A stretch of 50,921 nucleotides of DNA from Candidatus Poribacteria bacterium (GTDB lineage: Bacteria; Poribacteria; WGA-4E; WGA-3G), in contig JAPOZO010000068.1 of the NCBI GenBank assembly GCA_026706025.1, positions 1 to 50,921 on the forward strand. Reading direction: 5' to 3'. A program made the translations under genes and the position numbers. The notes below the pieces were generated by a model that worked only from the letters and a program-made list of their open reading frames with translations, was not told where the DNA came from and did not search any database. Shown here piece after piece: positions 22,988 through 38,802 of the stretch (the stretch's first letter is position 1; each line of letters opens with the position of its first letter).

Positions 22988-23833
22988 GTGAACACAACTC
23001 CCAAAGAACGGGAATTTAGACTGACCCCTGAAGAACGAGCCGCTTGGGACGAGAACGGCTACTTTGTCCGTTACGACGTTTTTACCGAAGCAGAAAATGA
23101 CCTTTTAACGCAAGTTGCTGATGACATCGCTCTCGGAAAGATACCCTTCCCAGACCACCGTATCTTTCAGAACGCGTTAGTGAGAGACGGAAAAGTTGAA
23201 GCATCCGGTATCCACGCGATGCACAGCATCCACCAAATGAATCTTTACTCTCCTGAATTCCTTGAACGCACGCGTGATCCGCGTCTTACCGACCCTGTTG
23301 TTGACATCCTCGGTCCAGATCTCCTCGGTCTCAATAGTCTCTATATCTGGAAACCGCCGAAAATTGGCTTAGGGTTCCCATGGCATCAGGATAGGTGGTA
23401 TACACGACCGCAGTTTAAAACCAAAACCACAGTCGGCACGTGGACGGCTATTGATGCCGCTGATAAAGAAAACGGGTGTCTATACGTTATACCCGGTAGC
23501 CATAAAATCGGCATCCTTGAGCATGTTGAGCTTGAAGGTTCACAACAACAGGAATTTAAGCAGGCAATCGGTGCGCGGGACGAAGATGGCGTCGCCGTTG
23601 AAATCCCACCCGGAAGTGTCATCTTTTTCGACAACCGGATCCTTCATAAAAGTACTGATAACAACACTGGACGCTTTCGACGAAGTAACATCGCACATTA
23701 TATCAGTGCGAAGGCAGAACGAGTGCCACATAAGAATTATATGCGTCCGCTTATGTGGGTTAGCGGTAAAATATACCCAACCCTGTCTGAGGGTGTCTAT
23801 CGTGACACTTTACCTATCACGGAATCCGAGTAA
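22988..23833 (+). CDS. PhyH-family dioxygenase, array member 1 (type A)
   Basis: A 281-residue non-haem Fe(II)/2-oxoglutarate-dependent oxygenase of the phytanoyl-CoA dioxygenase family. The facial triad is visible as H133 and D135 in PWHQDRW and H220 in ILHKSTDN; R229 to R231 in GRFRRSN should hold 2-oxoglutarate. The N-terminal block LTPEERAAWDENGYFVRYDVF is common to all five array members. It shares HQMNLYSPEFL, HQDRWYT and GSVIFFDNR with member 3. There is no signal peptide, so it should be cytosolic. The substrate cannot be read from the sequence. The start is GTG 22988 with AAGGA upstream. Confidence 0.9.
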   Translation: MNTTPKEREFRLTPEERAAWDENGYFVRYDVFTEAENDLLTQVADDIALGKIPFPDHRIFQNALVRDGKVEASGIHAMHSIHQMNLYSPEFLERTRDPRLTDPVVDILGPDLLGLNSLYIWKPPKIGLGFPWHQDRWYTRPQFKTKTTVGTWTAIDAADKENGCLYVIPGSHKIGILEHVELEGSQQQEFKQAIGARDEDGVAVEIPPGSVIFFDNRILHKSTDNNTGRFRRSNIAHYISAKAERVPHKNYMRPLMWVSGKIYPTLSEGVYRDTLPITESE

Positions 23834-23891
23834 AATAAAGACTGGTCGATGACTGGATCGTGCCGTATAAAACTTGTCAATAGGAGCATGC

Positions 23892-24746
23892 GTGAACACA
23901 AATATAACATCTGAGGAACGAAAATTTAGACTCACACCTGAAGAACGAGCCGCTTGGGAGGAAAACGGCTACTTTGTCCGTTACGACGTTTTCAGAAAAG
24001 AAGAGAATGACTTTTTAGCGCAAATCGCTGATGACATTGTTGATGGAAAACGACCCTTTCCAGGTTATCATATCTTTGAAAATGCTTTAGTCAGAGACGG
24101 TAAAGTCAAAGCACAAGGCATCTACGCAATGCACAATATCCAATATGTGAGTTGTAATTGCCCAGAATTCCTTGCACGGACGCGCGATCCGCGTCTCACT
24201 GACCCCGCCGTTGACATCCTCGGTCCAGATCTCCTCGGTCTCAACAACCTCTATATTTGGAAACCGCCAAAAATCGGTTTAGGGTTCCCGTGGCATCAGG
24301 ATAAATGGTATTTTAACCATCAATATAAAACAGGAACGACAGTCGCGACCTGGTCTGCTATTGATGCCGCTGATAAAGGAAATGGTTGTTTATACGTTAT
24401 CCCCGGCAGCCATAAGCATGGCGTTCGGGACCATAAGGAACTTGAAGGCTCACAACAAGGAGAGTTTAAACAGGCAGAAGGTGCTCGTGATGAAGACGGC
24501 GTCGCGGTAGAAGTTCCTGCTGGCGCGGTCATCTGGTTTAATAGCCAAGTCCTCCATAAAAGCACGGATAACCACAGTGAACGTTTCAGACGTGCAAATA
24601 TCGCACATTATATGAATGCTAAAGGAGAATGGACACGTCCTGAGGCTATGAATAAAAAACGTCCTCCGATGTGGATTCGGGGTAAAATCTATCCCGGCAT
24701 GGCAGATGGAGTGCAACGTGACGTTATACCGATTTTAGAGGAGTAG
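23892..24746 (+). CDS. PhyH-family dioxygenase, array member 2 (type B)
   Basis: A 284-residue paralogue of the preceding gene with the same triad (HQD in PWHQDKWYF, H in VLHKSTDN) and arginine region ERFRRAN. It differs at segments likely to line the active site: YVSCNCPEFL, HQDKWYFNHQYKT and GAVIWFNSQ, which it shares largely with member 5. GTG 23892 is taken as start because AGGAG lies five bases upstream and the resulting NTNITSEERKF matches its sisters; an in-frame TTG (23874) is an alternative. It lies 58 bases after member 1 on the same strand. Confidence 0.9.
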   Translation: MNTNITSEERKFRLTPEERAAWEENGYFVRYDVFRKEENDFLAQIADDIVDGKRPFPGYHIFENALVRDGKVKAQGIYAMHNIQYVSCNCPEFLARTRDPRLTDPAVDILGPDLLGLNNLYIWKPPKIGLGFPWHQDKWYFNHQYKTGTTVATWSAIDAADKGNGCLYVIPGSHKHGVRDHKELEGSQQGEFKQAEGARDEDGVAVEVPAGAVIWFNSQVLHKSTDNHSERFRRANIAHYMNAKGEWTRPEAMNKKRPPMWIRGKIYPGMADGVQRDVIPILEE

Positions 24747-24759
24747 GTCTTACCCTTGC

Positions 24760-24782
24760 GGGTGAGGTTTAAAACCCCGCCT
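24760..24782. repeat. Imperfect palindrome related to the GGTA/GGTT family
   Basis: Arms GGTGAGGTT (24761-24769) and AACCCCGCC (24773-24781) pair imperfectly. The flanks hold TTACCCTT and AAGGGTA in opposite orientation. It lies in the gap between array members 2 and 3. Confidence 0.4.
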
Positions 24783-24859
24783 GCATTGCTTGTTGTGTAA
24801 GGGTACACGAAAAGATGCGTAAGTTCTAAGTAGTGGGTCATGAATTATGAGGCGCATGG

Positions 24860-25717
24860 ATGGACATAAACATAACGCCTGAAAAACGCAAATTCCGCTT
24901 AACGCCTGATGAACGTGCTTTTTGGAACGAGAACGGCTACTTTGTCCGTTACGACGTTTTCAGTAAAGAAGAAAACGACTTTTTAAGTCAGGTCGCTGAT
25001 GACATTGCGCTCGGAAAAATACCCTACCCAGACCGTCACATCCATCAAAATGCGTTAGTCAGGGATGGAAAAGTCGAAGCATCGGGTATCCACGCGATGC
25101 ACAGTATCTATCAAATGAATCTTTATTCCCCTGAATTCCTTGCCCGGGCACGTGATCCCCGTCTCACCGACCCCATTGTTGATGTCCTCGGTCCAGATCT
25201 CCTCAGTCTCACCATTCTCTATATTTGGAAACCGCCGAAAATCGGTTTAGGGTTCCCGTGGCATCAAGATAGATGGTATACGCAATCTATGTTTAAAACC
25301 CCAACTACCGTCGGTACGTGGGCTGCCATTGATGCCGCAGATATAGATAATGGGTGTCTATACGTTATACCCGGTAGCCACAAAGACGAAATCCTTGAGC
25401 ATGTTGAACTTGAAGGATCGCAACAACAGGAGTTTAAACTGGCACTTGGTGCCAAGGACGAAGATGGGGTTGCCATTGAAGTGCCACCCGGAAGTGTCAT
25501 CTTTTTCGACAACCGACTCCTCCATAAAAGCACTGATAACACCACTGAGCGTTTTCGGCGGTGTAGTGTTGCACATTACTTGAGTGCAAAGGCGGAACGG
25601 ACCCTGTATAAGAATGTAAAGCATATACTTCCAGTCTCGTGGGTTCGGGGTAAAGTATACCCAACGCTGTCTGATGAAGTCCACCACGACACTTTACCCA
25701 TCTCAGAATCCGAATAG
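24860..25717 (+). CDS. PhyH-family dioxygenase, array member 3 (type A)
   Basis: A 285-residue paralogue closest to member 1: it shares YQMNLYSPEFL, HQDRWYTQ and GSVIFFDNRLLHKSTDN. The Fe-binding HxD and distal His and the FRRCS arginine region are intact. ATG 24860 gives DINITPEKRKFRLTPDERAFW, aligning with its sisters; the ribosome site is a modest GAGG. A 58-base block (25476-25533) is identical to the matching part of member 4, pointing to recent gene conversion. The substrate is unknown. Confidence 0.9.
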   Translation: MDINITPEKRKFRLTPDERAFWNENGYFVRYDVFSKEENDFLSQVADDIALGKIPYPDRHIHQNALVRDGKVEASGIHAMHSIYQMNLYSPEFLARARDPRLTDPIVDVLGPDLLSLTILYIWKPPKIGLGFPWHQDRWYTQSMFKTPTTVGTWAAIDAADIDNGCLYVIPGSHKDEILEHVELEGSQQQEFKLALGAKDEDGVAIEVPPGSVIFFDNRLLHKSTDNTTERFRRCSVAHYLSAKAERTLYKNVKHILPVSWVRGKVYPTLSDEVHHDTLPISESE

Positions 25718-25764
25718 AATACAGTAACGTGAAGGACTGAGAAATCATGTTGAAAGGAGCAAGA

Positions 25765-26628
25765 ATGGATACAAATACAACAACCGAAGAACGGAAATTT
25801 AGACTGACCCCTGAAGAACGAGCCTCTTGGGACGAAAACGGCTACTTTATCCGTTACGACGTTTTCACGAAAGACGAGAACGACTTTTTGGCGCAAATCG
25901 CTGATGACATCGCCACCGGTAAACGTCCCTTCCGTACGAAAAATGTCCACCAAAATGCGTTAGTCAGAGATGGAAAAACTGAAGCATCGGGGACCTACGC
26001 GATGCACTGTATTCATCATATAAATAATTACGCGCCTGAGTTCCTCGCACGCACACGTGATCCGCGTCTCACCGATCCCGTTGTTGACTTAATAGGTCCA
26101 AATATCCTCGGTCTCAACAATCTGTATATCTGGAAACCGCCAAAAATCGGTCTCGGTTTTCCGTGGCATCAAGATAGATGGTATTTTAATAGACAGTATA
26201 AGACGGACAAGACAGTTGGCACATGGACTGCGATTGATGCCGCAGATTTAGAGAATGGGTGTTTGTACGTTATTCCCGGTAGCCACAAGGACGGCGTTCT
26301 TGAGCATGAGGAGCTCGAAGGTTCACAACAAAACGAGTTTAAGAGCGCGCGCGGTGCCAAGGACGAAGACGGTGTCGCTGTTGAAGTGCCACCCGGAAGT
26401 GTCATCTTTTTCGACAACCGACTCCTCCATAAAAGCACCAATAACCACAGTGGACGGTTTCGTAGATGTAGTGTTGCTCATTATATCAGTGCGGATTCAG
26501 AACGTCTGCCGTATAAGAACATAAATCATATCAAACCGGTGATGTGGGTTCGGGGGGATACATACTCCGAGAAGATGGAACCCGTCTATCGGGACGCTTT
26601 GCCGATCCCCAAAGAACAGGAGGATTAA
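25765..26628 (+). CDS. PhyH-family dioxygenase, array member 4 (mosaic of types A and B)
   Basis: A 287-residue paralogue with an intact HxD (PWHQDRWYF), distal His (LLHKSTNN) and arginines (GRFRRCS). It reads as a mosaic: the central segment YFNRQYKT resembles type B, GSVIFFDNRLLHKS is type A, and the end WVRGDTYSEKMEPVYRD is shared with member 5. ATG 25765 is taken as start, with AAAGGAGC upstream; TTG 25747 is in frame but precedes the conserved beginning. Its TAA overlaps the ATG of member 5 by one base, so the two are translationally coupled. Confidence 0.9.
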   Translation: MDTNTTTEERKFRLTPEERASWDENGYFIRYDVFTKDENDFLAQIADDIATGKRPFRTKNVHQNALVRDGKTEASGTYAMHCIHHINNYAPEFLARTRDPRLTDPVVDLIGPNILGLNNLYIWKPPKIGLGFPWHQDRWYFNRQYKTDKTVGTWTAIDAADLENGCLYVIPGSHKDGVLEHEELEGSQQNEFKSARGAKDEDGVAVEVPPGSVIFFDNRLLHKSTNNHSGRFRRCSVAHYISADSERLPYKNINHIKPVMWVRGDTYSEKMEPVYRDALPIPKEQED

Positions 26629-27485
26629 TGGACACAAACACAGCACAACCACAACAGGAATTTGCGATAACACCTGAAGAACGATCTTTTTGGGAAGAAA
26701 ACGGATATTTTGTCCGTTACGACGTTTTCACAGAAAAAGAAAATGACAGTTTACGACACATCGCTGACGATATTGCTGTAGGAAAACGATCTTTCCCCAC
26801 GGCGAATATCAATCAAAACGCCTTGGTCAGAGATGGAAAAGTGGACGCATCGGGTATCCATGCGATGCACAAAATCCATCATGTGAGTTGTTACATCCCA
26901 GAATTCCTTGCGCGTGTCCGTGATCCGCGCCTAACGGATCCGATCGTTGACCTACTCGGGCCAAATCTACTGGGTCTCAATAATCTGTATATCTGGAAAT
27001 CCCCAAAGATTGGCTTAGGGTTCCCGTGGCATCAAGATAAATGGTATTTCAACCATCAGTACAAAACTGAAATGACCGTCGGCACGTGGACTGCGATTGA
27101 TGCCGCTGATCGAGACAACGGGTGTCTATACGTTATCCCCGGTAGCCACAAGCACGGTATTCTTAAGCATGAGGACCTTGAAGGTTCACAACAAGCGGAG
27201 TTTAAAATTGCACGTGATGCTAAGGACACAGATGGTGTCGCTGTTGAAGCACCGCCTGGGGCAGTCGTTTGGTTCAACAACCAACTCCTCCATAAAAGCA
27301 CCGATAATCACAGTTCGCGCTTTCGACGGTGTAATGTTGCACACTACATCAGTGCAAATGCAGAACGTATCCCTAAAAAGGATGCAAAAAATATCCGTCC
27401 TGTCGTGTGGGTTCGCGGGGGTACATACTCCGAAAAGATGGAACCGGTCTATCGCGACGTTTTGCCCATTCCAGAATCCGATTGA
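26628..27485 (+). CDS. PhyH-family dioxygenase, array member 5 (type B)
   Basis: A 285-residue paralogue of type B (HHVSCYIPEFL, HQDKWYFNHQYKT, GAVVWFNNQLLHKSTDN) with triad and arginine intact. KSPKIGLGF replaces the usual KPPKIGLGF. It starts at ATG 26628 inside the TAATG overlap with member 4, with AGGAGG a few bases before. It closes the array; the next gene begins 122 bases later behind its own GGAGGAGG site. The segment 27486-27607 shows nothing else recognisable. Confidence 0.9.
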   Translation: MDTNTAQPQQEFAITPEERSFWEENGYFVRYDVFTEKENDSLRHIADDIAVGKRSFPTANINQNALVRDGKVDASGIHAMHKIHHVSCYIPEFLARVRDPRLTDPIVDLLGPNLLGLNNLYIWKSPKIGLGFPWHQDKWYFNHQYKTEMTVGTWTAIDAADRDNGCLYVIPGSHKHGILKHEDLEGSQQAEFKIARDAKDTDGVAVEAPPGAVVWFNNQLLHKSTDNHSSRFRRCNVAHYISANAERIPKKDAKNIRPVVWVRGGTYSEKMEPVYRDVLPIPESD

Positions 27486-27607: not shown

Positions 27608-29404
27608 ATGTCTCATACATACAAACAGATAACGCGATCTTGGAAACTGGCAAACTTTGCCAAGATTATCACAGTAGCCGCTTTATGCGTTACCATTGCT
27701 GCTACAGCCGTCGCCCAAACACCCAATTTTCCAGAACGGATGCCAATCGTCGAACGACCGTTCTCAAATGACCCAGACAAATTCAGTTTCGCGATTATCG
27801 GCGACAAAACCGGTGGCGGTTTGGATAAGTGGCCAGTGTTTGACCGCGCAATAGACGAAATCAACATATTGAAACCCGACTTCGCTATCATGGTCGGCGA
27901 CCTAATACAGGGAGACACAAGAGACCTTAAACAACTCACGGCGGAATGGAAAGAATTTTGGGGGCATCAGTCCGATTTAATCGTGCCTTTTCTTCCGTTG
28001 CCTGGTAACCATGATATTACCAACCCAGTGATGTATGACTATTGGAAAGAATATCTCGGACGCACCTATTCGGCGTTTACCTATAAAAATTGTCTATTTA
28101 TAATGCTGAATACTGAGGAGTGGCACCATCCTGTACAGGCAGAGGAATGGGACTGGGAGAAAGGCTGGTTTGGAGATGAGCAGACGAAGTATGTGGAAGA
28201 TGAATTAGCAAAACACTCGGATGTCCGACATACGTTTGTCCTGCTGCACAGACCGCTATGGCTTCAGGAACACTCCGGTTGGGAAAAAATTGAGGCGGCA
28301 CTCGGTGAACGTGCATATACAGTTTTCGCGGGGCACTATCATAACCTGACGCTTCATACACGCAACGATCACCGATACTTCGTCCTCGGTGCTACCGGCG
28401 GCGGATTTACACCGCAGGAAGTACGAGAATACGGTGCATTTGACCACTATAGTATTGTAACCGTAGATGACGAAGCGGTTAATATCGCGATTATTGAACC
28501 CGGGAATATCCATCCCGCGGACATTTCGACGGCAGCGTTTAAAAATCGGCTTGCGAACTTGCTTACTTTTAAGCCGCAGTTTAATCTCAACAGAGATCAA
28601 CCGCTCTCCAGCGGAAAACTTGAAATAATCCTCGAAAACACGCTTGAAAAACTGCTGAAACTTGAAATAGTTTTCAATTCAAGTGAGAATTGGCAGGTCT
28701 CCCCAAATCAACTCTCTCTTCAAGCCAAACCCGGGCAAACCGCAAAAACAACTGTCACCTTTTCAGTCCCATCGGATGACTTCCTCCCGCTGCCGACCTA
28801 CAATTATTCAGCACTCTATGGTGGTGAACAATTGTTGAGCAGGAGGCAGTTGTTCCACCCTATTGACGGAGAAGATATGCGTATCCTTAAAGATTGGATG
28901 CTTCTCGGTCCCTTTGCCCTTGATGTCACAGAAACTCCCGTCGATCAGAACGATGTCCCACAGAGTTTTCTCAAAATATCATTACCGGAATCCGATCTCA
29001 ATAAGATTTACCAAGGACAATCAGGAGAAATTACTTGGCAAGAACATCGTTCTGAATCGGAGCGCGTCAATTTAAATGATGTTTTTGGGGACGCTGAGTT
29101 GGCGTACGGCTTCGGCACCTCCTATATCAAAAGCCCTGATGCACGGCGTGTGTTTGCGCAGATCGGATGGGGAAGCAATCTCGGAAGACTCTATCTTAAC
29201 GGCGTTGAGATTTCTGGTGCCGCTATTCCGGGCAAACATCTATTTTCTTGGTGGGCACACTTTGAATTACCTTTGAAAGAGGGTTGGAACACCTTAACGA
29301 TCCTGTCTGCAGATTACAATGGCTGGTGGGATTATCGGATGGAAGTCGCAGACGCTACAAACGCGTTGCAGTTCAGCACGAAACCCACTGATCCCGAAGA
29401 TTAA
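27608..29404 (+). CDS. Exported calcineurin-like metallophosphoesterase with C-terminal beta domains
   Basis: A 598-residue exported protein. The signal peptide ends near TAVAQ (residue 37). The catalytic domain (about 60-300) has the metallophosphoesterase blocks FAIIGDKTGG, AIMVGDLIQGD, LPGNHD, VLLHRPLW and FAGHYHNL. The first block has GDKT where many members have GDxH, a variant found in the GDRTGG subgroup. The later half looks like a beta sandwich plus a galactose-binding-like domain (DWMLLGPFAL, IGWGSNLGRLYLNG, LPLKEGWNTLTIL). A phosphodiesterase or phosphatase role in the periplasm is likely; the substrate is unknown. It precedes the PhnY/PhnZ-like pair, so it could release phosphonate or phosphate from larger molecules (inference). 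GGAGGAGG precedes the ATG. Confidence 0.88.
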   Translation: MSHTYKQITRSWKLANFAKIITVAALCVTIAATAVAQTPNFPERMPIVERPFSNDPDKFSFAIIGDKTGGGLDKWPVFDRAIDEINILKPDFAIMVGDLIQGDTRDLKQLTAEWKEFWGHQSDLIVPFLPLPGNHDITNPVMYDYWKEYLGRTYSAFTYKNCLFIMLNTEEWHHPVQAEEWDWEKGWFGDEQTKYVEDELAKHSDVRHTFVLLHRPLWLQEHSGWEKIEAALGERAYTVFAGHYHNLTLHTRNDHRYFVLGATGGGFTPQEVREYGAFDHYSIVTVDDEAVNIAIIEPGNIHPADISTAAFKNRLANLLTFKPQFNLNRDQPLSSGKLEIILENTLEKLLKLEIVFNSSENWQVSPNQLSLQAKPGQTAKTTVTFSVPSDDFLPLPTYNYSALYGGEQLLSRRQLFHPIDGEDMRILKDWMLLGPFALDVTETPVDQNDVPQSFLKISLPESDLNKIYQGQSGEITWQEHRSESERVNLNDVFGDAELAYGFGTSYIKSPDARRVFAQIGWGSNLGRLYLNGVEISGAAIPGKHLFSWWAHFELPLKEGWNTLTILSADYNGWWDYRMEVADATNALQFSTKPTDPED

Positions 29405-29495: not shown

Positions 29496-30287
29496 ATGTC
29501 TTACCTAAATCCAGAACTTCACAGAGACTGGAAAACGAACGGTTATCTGAAAATCCCGCACTTCTTCTCCGCCGAAGAAGTGGTGGACCTGCAAACCTGG
29601 GTCTCTGAAATCTCAGATTGGGAACCGACATCCGGCAAGTGGATGCATCACTACGAATCCACACCGGACGGCGCACGGCTTTCCCGCTCAGAAAATTTCG
29701 TGCCGTATCACACCAATATGAAAACCACCGTGACGAGCGGCAAAGTGTTAGCCGTTGTTTCCGAGTTGATGGAAGAACCCGCAGTCCTCTATAAAGAAAA
29801 GATTAACTACAAATACCCGGGCGGTGGCGGTTACGCTGCGCATCAGGACGCGCCCGCCTACGAGTTTATCAATTTCCACATCACCTGTTTAATCTCGGTG
29901 GATTCAGCGACTCCCGAAAATGGATGTCTCTATTTTTCACCGGGTCGGCATCAAGAGGGATTCATCGCACTGGACGAAAAGGGATGCGTCGCGCCTGAGA
30001 CCGCCTCAGCGATGGAGTGGATCGCGGTACCAACAGACCCTGGAGACATTCTCCTTTTCGGTTCTTACATCCCACACAAAAGTCCAGCAAATCGTTCAGA
30101 GCAACCGAGACGTATCATCTATCTCACTTACAACGCCATCTCACAAGGCGACTGGCGTGAGAAGTACTATGCCGACAAACGGGAGGCATTCTCCCAATAT
30201 GAGAAAGATGGTTCAAATCGAGACAAACAAATTAGCAAAATCGCACATTTTCAAGGGAAAACAGTAAATCATGGCAAACTACATTGA
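29496..30287 (+). CDS. PhyH-family dioxygenase, PhnY/TmpA-like (phosphonate hydroxylase candidate)
   Basis: A 263-residue Fe(II)/2-oxoglutarate dioxygenase clearly distinct from the five-gene array. The triad is H116 and D118 in YAAHQDAP plus H194 in IPHKSPANRS, with R205 or R206 in QPRRIIY. Segments KEKINYKYPGGGGY and, near the end, TYNAISQGDWREKYYADKREAF resemble PhnY-type enzymes, which hydroxylate 2-aminoethylphosphonate or related phosphonates at C1. It overlaps the following HD-domain gene by 17 bases, as expected for a PhnY-PhnZ unit. ATG 29496 is chosen (GAGGAA upstream, conserved opening YLNPELHRDWKTNGYLKI) over longer in-frame starts inside the phosphoesterase gene. The exact substrate is open. 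Confidence 0.85.
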   Translation: MSYLNPELHRDWKTNGYLKIPHFFSAEEVVDLQTWVSEISDWEPTSGKWMHHYESTPDGARLSRSENFVPYHTNMKTTVTSGKVLAVVSELMEEPAVLYKEKINYKYPGGGGYAAHQDAPAYEFINFHITCLISVDSATPENGCLYFSPGRHQEGFIALDEKGCVAPETASAMEWIAVPTDPGDILLFGSYIPHKSPANRSEQPRRIIYLTYNAISQGDWREKYYADKREAFSQYEKDGSNRDKQISKIAHFQGKTVNHGKLH

Positions 30288-30867
30288 CCAGAGCCTCGCA
30301 TACGAAATGAAAAACGCAACAGCAGAACAGAAGGTGGATGCGTTGTTCAACTACATGGAAGCAGAAGGGCAGTCGTTCTACGATGAGGTCGTGACGCAGC
30401 TGGAGCACGCGCTCCAATGCGCTGCCCTCGCACAGCAAAACGATGCAAGTCTTACACTGATTACAGGGGCATTACTCCACGATCTCGGACATATCATCTT
30501 AGACGAACACAATGCCGATAAAGCCTTTCTGGACATAGACTTGAATCACGAGGAGATAGGGGCGGAGTATCTGGCACCGTTTTTCCCAGAAGCCGTCACA
30601 ACGCCAATTCGGTTGCATGTTCCAGCGAAGCGATATCTATGTGCGACCGATGCGTCTTACCACGACGGGTTATCCGAGGCATCGAAAAGGAGTCTCATAG
30701 TTCAGGGAGGCGTGATGTCAGATGAGGAACGTGAGGCGTTTGAACAGATCCCACATTTCCGAGACGCCCTCACGTTACGCCGATGGGACGATCTCGCAAA
30801 GGTCAAAGGGTTAGAGATTGCGGGGTTAGAGACCTACCGAGGCATCGTGCAACAGTGCTTGGCGTAG
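30271..30867 (+). CDS. HD-domain oxygenase, PhnZ/TmpB-like (C-P bond cleavage candidate)
   Basis: A 198-residue HD-domain protein. The metal ligands expected for a mixed-valence di-iron PhnZ-type oxygenase are visible: H46 (VTQLEHALQ), H70 and D71 (LLHDLGH), H93 (NHEEIG), H116 (IRLHVPAKRYL) and D173 (RRWDD). K120, S138 and the QGG turn near 145 also fit. PhnZ cleaves the C-P bond of a 1-hydroxyphosphonate, for example to glycine and phosphate. One oddity: where PhnZ carries its iron-linked Tyr there is F36 followed by Y37, so the aromatic ligand may be shifted or lost. The glutamate of that motif (E39) is present. The 17-base overlap with the PhyH gene supports a joint pathway. Confidence 0.86.
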   Translation: MANYIDQSLAYEMKNATAEQKVDALFNYMEAEGQSFYDEVVTQLEHALQCAALAQQNDASLTLITGALLHDLGHIILDEHNADKAFLDIDLNHEEIGAEYLAPFFPEAVTTPIRLHVPAKRYLCATDASYHDGLSEASKRSLIVQGGVMSDEEREAFEQIPHFRDALTLRRWDDLAKVKGLEIAGLETYRGIVQQCLA

Positions 30868-33190: not shown

Positions 33191-34333
33191 ATGCTTACAG
33201 ATTCGTTCAAAATCACAGCCATTGAAAGCCAACTCTATGAATGGGACAAACCGCCTATCTGGAACGGCATGCATGTCTATGATAAAGGCAGGCTCCATCT
33301 GGTGAAGGTAACCGCCAAAAGTGGGACAGAAGCGCACGTCGGATACGGTTTTAATGGCGGCACCGCTGCAACCCGTCCACTCTCCATATTCCCAAAGTTT
33401 GTAGACCTGTTCCGCCCTGCCTTGATTGGTCACGATGTAACGGATACTGCCTATGTCTCACGATTAGCTGAGAACTACAAAATCTACGGACCCGGTGGGT
33501 ATCACACACAGGTACTCGCAGCCATAAACCAAGCGTGCTGGGATGTCCATGGAAAAATAGAAGGGAAATCGGTTCACGCCTTACTCGGTGGCACACAGCA
33601 ACGTATCTGTACCTATATCGCCGGTGGCTACTACGGTAGAGAGAAAGGGTTTGATGAACTCCGTGAAGAGATGTCGCGGAATATAAATGCGTTCAACGCT
33701 ACCGCGGTTAAGATGAAGATTGGCGACCCCGATGCAGGGATTAAAACGGACATCAAACGGATTGAAGTGGTTCGTGAAACAGTCGGCTCCGGTATTACCG
33801 TGATGGTGGACGCAAATTGTGCCTTGTCCATTGAAGAAGCGCGTGCGTTTCTGCCCGCGCTGCAGGCAAACAAAATCTTCTGGTTTGAAGAGCCAATTCA
33901 TAGCCACGATTACCGCGGACATAAGGCATTACGGGCAACAGCACAAGATTACGGTATACGAATCGCCACCGGCGAAAACGGATACGGATTACACTATTTC
34001 CAAACACTGATTGATTACGACGGCGCGGATGTATTCAATCTGGATGTCGCTATCCTCCCCGGCTATGACCCAGCGATGCAGGTCGTCGAAGAAGCGTCGG
34101 GAGCCGAAAAATTGATTGCCCCACACGGTGCGCAAGAATTGCAAATCCATATCGCTGCAAGTCGGGACAACGGTCTGATGTTAGAATACTATCCACCGGT
34201 TGTTGATCCGTTGCGCGGTGAAATGTTTCTCCCGCAGATGGTTTTAGATGCTGATGGATATGTTACAGTTCCGCCTCGGCCCGGCATCGGTTTTGAGCCG
34301 AATTGGGAACTGTTGAAGCATCATCGGGTTTAA
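33191..34333 (+). CDS. Enolase-superfamily enzyme (mandelate racemase/muconate lactonizing family)
   Basis: A 380-residue cytosolic enzyme of the mandelate racemase group, which abstracts the alpha proton of a carboxylate bound to Mg2+ and commonly dehydrates acid sugars. Visible: the lid GYGFNGGTAA, ALLGG, the KxK motif VKMKIG, metal ligands MVDAN, WFEEPI and ATGEN, and APHGAQELQIH, where the histidine is the likely second base. The carboxylate substrate cannot be read. It follows the regulator-like gene after 7 bases and has only a weak ribosome site, suggesting translational coupling. The LarA/TRAP genes downstream on the other strand also deal with hydroxy or sugar acids. Confidence 0.88.
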   Translation: MLTDSFKITAIESQLYEWDKPPIWNGMHVYDKGRLHLVKVTAKSGTEAHVGYGFNGGTAATRPLSIFPKFVDLFRPALIGHDVTDTAYVSRLAENYKIYGPGGYHTQVLAAINQACWDVHGKIEGKSVHALLGGTQQRICTYIAGGYYGREKGFDELREEMSRNINAFNATAVKMKIGDPDAGIKTDIKRIEVVRETVGSGITVMVDANCALSIEEARAFLPALQANKIFWFEEPIHSHDYRGHKALRATAQDYGIRIATGENGYGLHYFQTLIDYDGADVFNLDVAILPGYDPAMQVVEEASGAEKLIAPHGAQELQIHIAASRDNGLMLEYYPPVVDPLRGEMFLPQMVLDADGYVTVPPRPGIGFEPNWELLKHHRV

Positions 34334-34419: not shown

Positions 34420-35706
34420 TTAGAGAAGTGGTGCTGATGTTTTTCCAAAGACTCGCGGGAGCCAGAGACTCAACTCCGGCACATACGTCACCAAAACAAG
34501 TGCTACCAGTAGCAGCGCGATAAATAAGAGGACAGAACGGTAGAGCAGCACGACAGACCGATCAAATTTCATGCTGGAAATGAACAGATTCATGCCAACA
34601 GGCGGGGTCAAATACCCAATTTCGAGGTTGGTTAAGACGATGATCCCGAGATGCGCCTTATCAATCCCGAATTGCTCAGCAATAGGAAGCAGCAACGGCA
34701 CCACGATAATTATCGCCGAAAAGATGTCCATCAGACACCCAATGATGAGCAAGAAGACGTTGAGTCCGATGAGTGTAATGACACGACTTTCTGTTGTTGA
34801 TTGAATCCAGTCGAGGACGGCTGTCGGTACATCAAGCGTGATGAGATAGTTTGTCAACCCTAAGGCGATACCCAAAATAATAAGGATTGCACCAACAAGT
34901 AAGGTGCTCTCCTTGACGATACGCGGTAACACTCTCAACGAAATAGAACGGTGGATGCCCATTTCTACGATACAGGCATAGATGGCTGTTAGTGCAGCCG
35001 CCTCGTCCAATGTAACGATACCCGATAAAATACCACCCAACACAATAAACGGCAGCAGGAGTTCCCACTTCGCTTCCCAGAGTGTTCTTAGGAAAACCGT
35101 CAAATCAAACGGTGTTGTCTCACTCTTCTTGATAACACTCCATCCACAGCAATAGAAACTCAGAACACCGAGAATCAGGAGACCGGGAATAATCCCCGCG
35201 AGGAACATCCTGTCAATAGGAACCTGGGCGATAATCGCGTAGAGGATGAGCGGAACGCTCGGGGGAAAGAGCAGCCCGATACTTCCAGAAGCCGTTATCA
35301 AGCCGAGAGAAAATTTTTCGTTATAGGTTTGCCGCAGGATCGGATAGACCAATCCACCGAGGGCAATAATCGTTACGCCGGACGCGCCTGTGAAAGTAGT
35401 AAAGAAAGCACACGTACCGAGAACGACGACAGCAATACCGCCCGGTAACCAGCCAACACTCGCACGCGCGAACGCAACCAACCGTTGCGGTGCCTTCCCT
35501 TCAGCGATAATGTATCCTGCAAAGGTGAAAAGTGGGATAATGAGGATTGTCGAATTCCGGGTGAGCCGGTTGAAATCAATCAGGATTGTCGCAATCGGTT
35601 CGCCTGCCATGGCATATCCAATAATCGAGGCACCACCGAGTAAAACGAAAAGCGCGCCACCGAGGAGTGCGAAACCTATCAAACCGATGCCAATTATGAG
35701 TCCCAT
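34420..35706 (-). CDS. dctM: TRAP transporter large permease
   Basis: A 428-residue, very hydrophobic inner-membrane protein of the DctM family, the transport-carrying subunit of tripartite ATP-independent periplasmic transporters. Characteristic segments: IIPLFTFAGYIIAEGKAPQRLVAFA, FTTFTGASGVTIIALGGLVYP, SLGLITASGSIGLLFPPSVPLILYAIIA and LTNLEIGYLTPPVGMNLFI. It imports organic acids such as C4-dicarboxylates or sugar acids by sodium symport. Its ATG overlaps the dctQ stop by one base (TGATG). No DctP binding-protein gene is present in the operon. Confidence 0.94.
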   Translation of the reverse strand: MGLIIGIGLIGFALLGGALFVLLGGASIIGYAMAGEPIATILIDFNRLTRNSTILIIPLFTFAGYIIAEGKAPQRLVAFARASVGWLPGGIAVVVLGTCAFFTTFTGASGVTIIALGGLVYPILRQTYNEKFSLGLITASGSIGLLFPPSVPLILYAIIAQVPIDRMFLAGIIPGLLILGVLSFYCCGWSVIKKSETTPFDLTVFLRTLWEAKWELLLPFIVLGGILSGIVTLDEAAALTAIYACIVEMGIHRSISLRVLPRIVKESTLLVGAILIILGIALGLTNYLITLDVPTAVLDWIQSTTESRVITLIGLNVFLLIIGCLMDIFSAIIIVVPLLLPIAEQFGIDKAHLGIIVLTNLEIGYLTPPVGMNLFISSMKFDRSVVLLYRSVLLFIALLLVALVLVTYVPELSLWLPRVFGKTSAPLL

Positions 35707-36245
35707 CAGTCAGGTTCCCCCTCGATAGCATCTGGCGTATCCGCACTCCCTGTTAGATGGATGCCAATCTGGAGTACCACATGAACACCAATGAGAACAA
35801 AACCGTACGGAATAATAGTTTTCGCCCACCACAACGGGACACTGCCAATTAATACAGCCTCGCTTGACTGTTCATCTCCAAGAAAGAGAAAACCGTAATA
35901 CGCTAAAATCCCGACAACGACCAAGGCGATACAGTCAATAACGAGATGGGTCCAACGCGTGACGCTTCTCGGCAGAATCCGACTCAGTACATCAATACTG
36001 ATATGTCGTCTCTCACAGGTAGCGAGCGCGGCACCGAAGAAGCAGAGCCAGAGCGTCAAGTGTTGCAGCATTATATCGCTCCACAACAGACTGGTGCTGA
36101 ACACGTAACGCAGGACAATTTTGAGTATCGCAAGCCCGAGCATCATGGCGACAATGAGACACAACGCGCCGGTCTCGACTTTACCGAGGAAAGTATTAGC
36201 GTTTTGCAGGAAAGCATTACCCGTACTTTCTTTTCGTATCGGCAT
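35706..36245 (-). CDS. dctQ: TRAP transporter small permease
   Basis: A 179-residue inner-membrane protein with four hydrophobic segments, of the DctQ family. Typical features are LAILKIVLRYVFSTSLLWSDIM, LWLCFFGAALATCERRHISIDVLSRILP and LVVVGILAYYGFLFLG. It partners with DctM. Its ATG directly abuts the TAG stop of the preceding larA-like gene, and the ribosome site GGAGAA lies within the end of that gene. It is therefore part of the same transcript as the two LarA homologues. Confidence 0.9.
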   Translation of the reverse strand: MPIRKESTGNAFLQNANTFLGKVETGALCLIVAMMLGLAILKIVLRYVFSTSLLWSDIMLQHLTLWLCFFGAALATCERRHISIDVLSRILPRSVTRWTHLVIDCIALVVVGILAYYGFLFLGDEQSSEAVLIGSVPLWWAKTIIPYGFVLIGVHVVLQIGIHLTGSADTPDAIEGEPD

Positions 36246-37505
36246 CTATTTCTCCGGGGCTAACACCTGAATTCCAGCGGAAGGTAGAACAGCGACTTTC
36301 GCCTGAGATGGCAGTCTCTCGGCGAACAGCGCGATCAACTGATCAAGATCTCTAAAGAGGAGGTCCCCCGGATGTTTTTTGTAAAAATCATCGACTAAAA
36401 AGTGTTCTGACCAGACGTGCAGTTGGTCTTGCGTTCCGAGTTGTGCGGGTGGGAGTTCAGATTGCGCCCGCTCCGCCCGCTGTTGTAAGAAGCGTGCGAA
36501 ATCAATCTCCTCAAACAGTCCATGGTAGCAGATACCGTCTGATGCGGGGTTGAGTGCCATTTTATACGCTTTTTCAAAATAACGCGTCGCCCACAACGCT
36601 TTACCCGTTTGGATCGGATCGCTGTCAAGTGGGTAGCAGTTGAGTACAACTAAATCGGTCTCTTTTCGACTCGCTTCCGGTATCTCTGTGCCGTAAGTGT
36701 CTAAAGCGAAGTGCGCCCCTTTACGGTGCGCCTGCACAAAATCACCTACGAACAGTCCACAGATTTCACGGCGGCTGTTGAGTACCGTGTTGACAATCAC
36801 ATCAAGCCCGAGGACACCCGCTACTTCCTCAGCGAAATCTCGATGATCCGGTTCACTCCCCTTTCTTTCAATAACGGCGTGTCCGCGTCCGGGTGAGAAC
36901 GTATGGAAATAAAACATTGTGGCGAAACCTGCGATTCCCGGCACGACCAATTTCGCGCCGCCACCGAAACCGACGGATCCGTGTGGATAAATACCACCAA
37001 GACAGATTTTGAAATCCGCATCCGCAATGACACGATTGAGATAGATAGGCATCCCGTTACTAAGATTTCCCAGCGCACGCAGATCGCCGCTCATGAAATC
37101 GTGACTCGTTGCTTCATATTCAGCGGCGACAGTCGCACCAATCTTCTTCGCAACCTCTTCATCAGTGAGAGGTCGGTGAGAACCACCACCGACAACGAAT
37201 CGGATTGCGGACTTCGGGACACCTGCTGTGGCTAACTCACGCAGAAGCATAGGGATAACCTTCGCTGCAGGTGTCGGACGGCTCAAGTCATCAACGACGA
37301 TAGCAGCACTCTTTTTCCCTTTCGCGAGTTCCGATATACGAGGTGTGCCGATCGGTTCAGCAAATGCCTGTTCAATTTGTGTATCCGAAAGCACGGGCGC
37401 GTCTTTGGGGCCGAGTACCTCCACCTCCCAACCGGTCGGAAAATTCAAAGTCAGTTCTTCATCTCCATACCAAGCACTGGAGTAGACTGTAGCAGTGTTA
37501 TTCAT
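36246..37505 (-). CDS. LarA-domain protein (nickel-dependent lactate racemase family), copy 1
   Basis: A 419-residue member of the LarA/DUF2088 family, which racemises or epimerises 2-hydroxy acids with the nickel-pincer nucleotide cofactor. Recognisable features are VDDLSRPTPAAKVIP, VVGGGSHRPLTDEE (cofactor-region histidine) and CLGGIYPHGSVGFGGGAKLVVPG, whose Lys is the expected cofactor attachment site. LarB, LarC and LarE, which build the cofactor, are not in the window. It is a close tandem copy of the gene at 37534-38802, starts 28 bases after it and has AGAGGA upstream. The substrate may be the acid imported by the adjoining TRAP permeases (inference). Confidence 0.88.
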   Translation of the reverse strand: MNNTATVYSSAWYGDEELTLNFPTGWEVEVLGPKDAPVLSDTQIEQAFAEPIGTPRISELAKGKKSAAIVVDDLSRPTPAAKVIPMLLRELATAGVPKSAIRFVVGGGSHRPLTDEEVAKKIGATVAAEYEATSHDFMSGDLRALGNLSNGMPIYLNRVIADADFKICLGGIYPHGSVGFGGGAKLVVPGIAGFATMFYFHTFSPGRGHAVIERKGSEPDHRDFAEEVAGVLGLDVIVNTVLNSRREICGLFVGDFVQAHRKGAHFALDTYGTEIPEASRKETDLVVLNCYPLDSDPIQTGKALWATRYFEKAYKMALNPASDGICYHGLFEEIDFARFLQQRAERAQSELPPAQLGTQDQLHVWSEHFLVDDFYKKHPGDLLFRDLDQLIALFAERLPSQAKVAVLPSAGIQVLAPEK

Positions 37506-37533
37506 AATCGTCCTCTATCTTATAGAAAGGTTT

Positions 37534-38802
37534 TTAACCCCGATGTTGTTCCCCTAATATCTGAATTCCGGCTGCTGGCAGAACACCGACGCGTGCGTGT
37601 TTTGGAAGTTTCTCTGCAAAGAGCTGAATCACTTGTTCAAGGTTGCGAAAGAGGCGTGCAGCTGGGTATTCTTTGTAGAATTCATCTGCGCCAAAGTACT
37701 CAGACCAGACGTGTAGTTGGTTGCGGGGTCCGATTTGCGGCACTGGTGGTTCCATCGGAATCTGTTCCGCGCGCTGCTGGAGATAGCGCGGATAATCAAG
37801 TCTATCGTACAGACCGTGGTAGCAGCTGCCATCACTGGCAGGATAGAGTGCCAATGTATAGGCGTTCTGAAAATAACTAAAGGCTGCCAGTGCCTTATCC
37901 AGTTGGATTGCATCAGAATCGAGTGGATAGCAGTTCGCCACAATCAAATTAGTCGCTTTTTCACTCGTTTCGGATATCGGTGTACTATAAGTCTCCAAAG
38001 CGAAACGCGCACCCGCACGATGCGCTTTTACAAAGTCCCCTAAGAACACGCCAGAGATCTCACGATGGGTATTCAGCGTCATGTTTACAATGGCATCAAG
38101 TCCAAGAATTTTTGCTGCCAGCTCAGCACAAGCGCGTCGGTCAGGTTCATCGCCTTCTTCCCCCTCAATAATTCCTGGACCGCGGCTTGATGAATAGGTA
38201 TGAAAGTAAAATATTGTCGCGAATCCTGAGACACCAGGTACAATCAACTTTGCCCCCCCAGTAAAACCGACAGAACTGTGCGGATAAATACCACCGACAC
38301 AGATTTTAAAATCCGCATCTGCAACAATACGGTTAATATAGATAGGCATCCCATTATCAAGGCTACCGAGGGCACGTAGATCACCGCTCAGGAAATCATG
38401 GTTCGTCGCTTCATATTCAGCCGCTACATCTGTCCCAATTTTTGTCGCGATCTCTTGATCGGTCAACGGACGGTGGGAGCCGGGCCCAACAACAAATCGG
38501 ATCTCGGATTTCGGGACACCTGCCGATGCCAACTCACGTAGGATAAACGGGATAACTCTCGCGGCAGGGGTCGGACGGCTCAGATCATCAACAACAATAG
38601 CGGCACTCTTTTTCCCCTTCGCGAGTTCTGCTATACGCGGGGTACCAATCGGCTCAGCAAATGCCTTTTCAATTTGCGCATCAGAAAGGGCAGGCGCGTC
38701 TTTCGGACCTAATACCTCAACTTCCCAATCGATCGGAAAATTCAGCGTCAGTTCCTCATCCCCGTACCAAGCACGGGAACGAACTTTAGCTGTGTTGTTC
38801 AT
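37534..38802 (-). CDS. LarA-domain protein (nickel-dependent lactate racemase family), copy 2
   Basis: A 422-residue homologue very similar along its length to the gene at 36246-37505, with VDDLSRPTPAARVIP, VVGPGSHRPLTDQE and CVGGIYPHSSVGFTGGAKLIVPG. The histidine and lysine expected to hold the nickel cofactor are retained, so both copies look active. Differences lie mainly in the C-terminal half (for example SSSRGPGIIEGEEGDEP). AAGGAG precedes the ATG. It begins 16 bases after the pyrG stop, which makes it part of a six-gene minus-strand run. Confidence 0.88.
   Translation of the reverse strand: MNNTAKVRSRAWYGDEELTLNFPIDWEVEVLGPKDAPALSDAQIEKAFAEPIGTPRIAELAKGKKSAAIVVDDLSRPTPAARVIPFILRELASAGVPKSEIRFVVGPGSHRPLTDQEIATKIGTDVAAEYEATNHDFLSGDLRALGSLDNGMPIYINRIVADADFKICVGGIYPHSSVGFTGGAKLIVPGVSGFATIFYFHTYSSSRGPGIIEGEEGDEPDRRACAELAAKILGLDAIVNMTLNTHREISGVFLGDFVKAHRAGARFALETYSTPISETSEKATNLIVANCYPLDSDAIQLDKALAAFSYFQNAYTLALYPASDGSCYHGLYDRLDYPRYLQQRAEQIPMEPPVPQIGPRNQLHVWSEYFGADEFYKEYPAARLFRNLEQVIQLFAEKLPKHARVGVLPAAGIQILGEQHRG

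Follow-up and report, generated by a model that had tools for sequence, protein, structure and literature searches.

A hydroxylase and HD-domain oxygenase gene pair of Candidatus Poribacteria, probably of the methylphosphonate type

Described systems and the poribacterial gene pair

The closest described systems are: (i) PhnY*/PhnZ1 of Gimesia maris, for methylphosphonate, reportedly described in 2019, (ii) PhnY/PhnZ of the uncultured bacterium HF130_AEPn_1, for 2-aminoethylphosphonate (2-AEP; PDB 4MLM, 4MLN, 4N6W and 4N71), and (iii) TmpA/TmpB of Leisingera caerulea (PDB 6NPA), for N-trimethyl-2-aminoethylphosphonate. A phnY/phnZ pair of Poribacteria was already published in 2014 and assigned to 2-AEP (Kamke et al., PMC3909097), in the sole paper naming both Poribacteria and phnZ in the literature that was searched. 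The pair analyzed here shares with it the phylum, the gene pair itself and a further phosphohydrolase gene nearby, but lies nearer the methylphosphonate branch, whereas theirs was assigned from 40% identity to PhnY. What is new is that the pair is reassigned to the branch of the methylphosphonate enzymes, that the loop provides a signature and that sponge Gemmatimonadota and Latescibacterota have HD relatives without a partner.

The window, i.e., the whole stretch of 50,921 nucleotides that was analyzed, comes from a poribacterial genome of 6.27 Mb in 103 contigs. The features under study are the following:

27608..29404, + strand: metallophosphoesterase with a probable signal peptide, frequent upstream neighbour (PF00149, 1.6e-8)
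29496..30287, + strand: PhnY*-like Fe(II)/2-oxoglutarate dioxygenase of the PhyH family, 263 aa (PF05721, NF052437, residue conservation)
30271..30867, + strand: predicted PhnZ1-like HD-domain mixed-valent di-iron oxygenase, 198 aa (NF052439, TIGR03276, PDB matches, AlphaFold2 fold)
30271..30287, + strand: 17-nt overlap of the PhyH and HD reading frames (ORF coordinates)
30376..30387, + strand: FYDE motif (F36-Y37-D38-E39), putative short-loop gate (alignment and 54-row tree)

An earlier note made from the sequence had placed both genes at these positions with a 17-base overlap, and both reading frames were confirmed there. In relatives, homology sets in about 775 nt ahead of the HD start, in agreement with a PhyH start at 29496. 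The overlap is also 17 nt in most poribacterial loci, with overlaps of 8 to 44 nt or short gaps elsewhere, and suggests translational coupling. In each of the 37 poribacterial loci that were examined, the pair is complete, with the hydroxylase gene directly upstream of the HD gene, and synonymous codon differences from six relatives exceed non-synonymous ones; the conservation of the pair far exceeds chance. The HD gene is present in 59 of the 85 genomes of the phylum, and metagenome-assembled genomes (MAGs) of Candidatus Poribacteria encode proteins sharing up to 97% identity with the HD protein of the window. Partnered relatives were also found in planctomycetes, cyanobacteria, a gammaproteobacterium, a Rhodospirillaceae genome, an Acidimicrobiales MAG and two actinobacterial plasmids. 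The source genome carries one HD gene of the PhnZ-like oxygenase kind and 44 matches to the PhyH profile. Searches of this genome found no PhnJ of C-P lyase and one weak match to a phosphonate-binding protein, away from the pair; the genes next to the pair include no dedicated phosphonate transporter.

Family, ligands and fold of the two proteins

The best profile of the HD protein is hydroxymethylphosphonate dioxygenase NF052439 (264.8 bits, cut-off 300), and it scores 214.0 bits on TIGR03276, the phosphonate degradation HD-domain oxygenase family, against a cut-off of 214.6. On NF052439, proteins of Gimesia (399 bits) and Rhodopirellula (256) serve as yardsticks, as do PhnZ (124) and TmpB (140), both of them partial sequences taken from a PDB alignment. 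Among PDB sequences, PhnZ (2.2e-34) and TmpB (5.5e-31) were matched. Residues H46, H70, D71, H93, H116, K120 and D173, which the earlier note had listed, are all present and, together with Y37, do not vary in an alignment of 38 sequences, in which E39 is at least 90% conserved; the HD protein has the full set of ligands of the PhnZ/TmpB di-iron oxygenases. Structure prediction, one of the checks proposed for the HD protein, gave an AlphaFold2 model (pLDDT 91.4) nearest to PhnZ (Z 25.4) and TmpB (Z 25.1), followed by MIOX (Z 11.6), and not to HD hydrolases, other HD proteins reaching about 9 or less. Foldseek agrees with this ranking.

These data bear on the idea that the locus is an ordinary HD phosphohydrolase beside an unrelated PhyH oxygenase. 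The 44 PhyH-profile matches of the genome make a chance adjacency conceivable, but the fold and ligands are of the oxygenase type and the pairing is kept in the 37 poribacterial loci and in planctomycete, cyanobacterial, proteobacterial and actinobacterial ones. On fold, ligands and gene pairing together, this idea was ruled out and its residual probability is negligible.

The upstream protein matches PF05721 at 3.8e-30. Its best NCBIfam family is methylphosphonate hydroxylase NF052437, with 361 bits for a cut-off of 500, the next family reaching 18 bits. On this profile, presumed Prochlorococcus genomes give 219 bits, presumed Synechococcus genomes 232-234 and the pairs of the Dietzia and Rhodococcus plasmids 258-261, compared to 130-167 bits for unpartnered PhyH proteins of Nostoc and Rhizobium; therefore, the PhyH protein of the window is well inside the partnered group. 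It is 53-54% identical to Gimesia relatives and 40-41% to those of the presumed Prochlorococcus and Synechococcus genomes. Its candidate metal ligands (H116-x-D118 and H194) and candidate 2-oxoglutarate-binding arginine (R205 or R206) are invariant in 32 partnered relatives. The YYADKREAF block, which the earlier note described as ending the protein and as seen in PhnY-type enzymes, does exist but at residues 224-232 of 263 rather than at the C-terminal end. Partnered relatives share only Y224-Y225 throughout, and the complete block is confined to Poribacteria and some planctomycetes.

Since both proteins score below the equivalog cut-offs of NCBIfam (361 of 500 and 264.8 of 300 bits), the pair is filed as the nearest branch and not as an equivalog of these families, although they are its best ones.

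Pathway and probable substrate

The profile matches, sequence, fold and gene pairing strongly support the proposal that this is an oxidative, C-P cleaving pair of the PhnY/PhnZ type. Comparison with profiles also placed it, as anticipated, near characterised phosphonate oxygenases, but with the methylphosphonate pair as best match and 150 bits on the TmpB profile. The other part of the initial proposal, an aminoalkyl phosphonate as substrate, was not borne out, both proteins being nearest the methylphosphonate branch and TmpA belonging to the TauD family and not to PhyH. The pair probably carries out phosphonate oxidation in two steps, as a pathway of the PhnY*/PhnZ1 type. Like the G. maris system, it has the same best profile for both proteins, a PhyH gene upstream of the HD gene, the short Y-D-E loop and the HQDAPAY metal motif; it differs by the identity to Gimesia relatives (53-54% for PhyH, about 55% for HD), by scores below both equivalog cut-offs and by reading frames that overlap in most Poribacteria.

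In the PhyH tree, the Poribacteria group with planctomycetes (support 98/95) and then with Gimesia (82/88), the cyanobacterial proteins falling outside; this tree leaves out the 2-AEP-specific PhnY branch, and its comparison genomes, which include a Gimesia MAG and presumed Prochlorococcus genomes, differ from the assayed strains. G. maris is a methylphosphonate user, and so is Prochlorococcus MIT9301, which is unable to use 2-AEP (PMC6581173; PMC10574752). Therefore, lineages with methylphosphonate users flank the protein of the window in the PhyH tree. When a 2-AEP PhnY was sought as an outgroup, by way of PhnZ, in 385 genomes from the class to which a SAR11 genome belongs, none was retrieved at a strict and maybe too strict threshold, and two plasmid relatives of PhnZ are devoid of a PhyH neighbour.

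Under the preferred assignment, the PhyH enzyme would use Fe(II), 2-oxoglutarate and O2 to convert methylphosphonate into hydroxymethylphosphonate, and the predicted mixed-valent di-iron site of the HD enzyme would then cleave the C-P bond oxidatively, yielding phosphate and formate. The expected outcome is phosphorus acquisition without methane release. It should also be emphasized that the HD enzyme alone leaves the substrate unfixed, because, according to a review (PMC10574752), the PhnZ of Gimesia can also cleave the intermediate derived from 2-AEP.

A 2-AEP pathway (PhnY/PhnZ sensu stricto), in which 2-AEP would be hydroxylated to 2-amino-1-hydroxyethylphosphonate and this product cleaved into glycine and phosphate, appears unlikely. 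It agrees with the assignment of Kamke et al. (2014), made from identity to PhnY before the methylphosphonate pair was described, with 2-AEP phosphonolipids reported in sponges (both PMC3909097) and with E39, which corresponds to the Glu binding the amino group of the substrate in PhnZ and is kept in all Poribacteria. The HF130_AEPn_1 system shares with the pair the HD fold, the di-iron ligands, K120 and the catalytic logic. However, the HD protein of the window reaches 265 bits on the hydroxymethylphosphonate profile compared to 124 for PhnZ, a distant score, its loop is one residue shorter than that of PhnZ, and its identity is about 55% to Gimesia relatives compared to about 39% to PhnZ.

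The TmpA/TmpB pathway for N-trimethyl-2-aminoethylphosphonate can practically be dismissed: TmpB is homologous to the HD protein (5.5e-31) and has the same oxygenase fold and ligands, but its partner TmpA is of the TauD/butyrobetaine-dioxygenase type (577 bits on NF049936 for a Labrenzia relative), its loop is of the long YxxE type, and the HD protein of the window reaches 150 bits on the TmpB profile NF049941 for a cut-off of 300. The partner family, PhyH here and TauD-type there, rules out membership in this system.

If methylphosphonate is the substrate, Poribacteria would gain phosphorus from it without methane release, and the published 2-AEP assignment would be corrected. Poribacteria are among the commonest sponge symbionts. 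In contrast, a C-P lyase route has been proposed for other sponge symbionts (PMC9999580).

The short loop, neighbouring genes and relatives elsewhere

Tyrosines Y24 of PhnZ and Y30 of TmpB cap an iron and have been shown to swing away with substrate. In the resting HD enzyme of the window, Y37 would likewise cap one iron and swing away upon substrate binding. Loss of the Tyr/Glu motif, which was to count against an oxygenase, was not observed, Y37 and E39 both being there, with a spacing (Y37-D-E39) one residue shorter than the Y-x-x-E of PhnZ and TmpB (Y24/E27 in PhnZ). A loss of the gating tyrosine had been considered, phmmer having set F36 opposite Y24 of PhnZ, and was rejected: a multiple alignment of 38 relatives pairs Y37 with all other tyrosines, and therefore the loop is shorter, not mutated.

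The short loop occurs in 42 of the 54 tree rows, including Gimesia, other planctomycetes and presumed Prochlorococcus relatives, and the long YxxE loop in the other 12 (PhnZ, TmpB and 10 others). All short-loop rows are on one side of a branch whose support is weak (60/81). The HD tree shows an unresolved backbone. All partnered rows have the short loop, and the flanks of the 10 long-loop rows whose neighbourhood is known yielded no PhnY-like PhyH gene. The Glu is sometimes replaced by Asp or Pro in short-loop relatives, which would fit a substrate lacking an amino group; Poribacteria always have Glu.

Proteins 57-62% identical to the HD protein of the window are encoded by MAGs of Gemmatimonadota and Latescibacterota, with no PhnY-like gene near the HD gene. 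Elsewhere in these MAGs, the best PhnY-like match reached 82-86 bits in four genomes, and none was found in five others (E 1e-20). We tentatively propose, as a rather speculative idea, that the short loop marks a distinct class of HD oxygenases for substrates without an amino group and that the partnerless symbionts feed on hydroxymethylphosphonate from their neighbours; incompleteness of the MAGs and transfer between symbionts are alternative explanations for the missing hydroxylase. In ocean surveys, phnZ-like genes are often counted together; if the substrate of the pair is methylphosphonate, Y-D-E versus Y-x-x-E would be a short sequence mark sorting them by likely substrate. Among the partnerless short-loop loci (L077-L084, L087), neighbours include ABC/FtsX-type genes and, in L079 and L080, a gene that looks phosphoesterase-like by eye.

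The exported phosphoesterase that had been noticed upstream of the pair is a metallophosphoesterase (PF00149) whose N-terminal stretch resembles, by eye, a signal peptide. Because it is upstream of the pair in 18 of the 34 poribacterial loci with enough flank, it is a frequent but not a fixed neighbour; an ester-cleaving role in the pathway is possible. Its recurrence in these 18 loci, across families of the phylum, and the scores of both proteins below the equivalog cut-offs would suit a pair acting on another phosphonate (ethyl-, hydroxyethyl- or esterified) made available by this enzyme. However, about half of the loci lack the phosphoesterase and no characterised relative has such a substrate, which makes this quite improbable compared to the methylphosphonate assignment. 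Most of the closer loci also keep an alpha/beta hydrolase gene downstream of the pair.

Five related PhyH-family genes arranged in tandem (22988-27485) immediately precede the phosphoesterase gene; the one member that was compared with the PhnY-like protein shares only about 21% identity with it. Poribacteria are rich in PhyH genes (PMC3909097). Further downstream (34420-38802), the window carries genes encoding a TRAP transporter DctM protein, a small neighbour and a lactate-racemase-like (Lar_N) protein, which has a similar second copy on the - strand, with an enolase-superfamily gene nearby (33191-34333). This DctM/Lar_N/enolase-superfamily group is likely a separate sugar-acid module.

On the Dietzia and Rhodococcus plasmids (L142, L143), the pair is accompanied by a GPR1/FUN34/YaaH family transporter and another 2-oxoglutarate oxygenase. 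In Gimesia SAT87 (L136), the hydroxylase match contains one in-frame TAG, which could be an assembly error or an over-run of the match. Lastly, a record deposited under the name of a Pseudomonas phage (OQ658365.1) carries at its end (61055-61570) an HD relative with 44% identity, which may be host DNA at the edge of this record.
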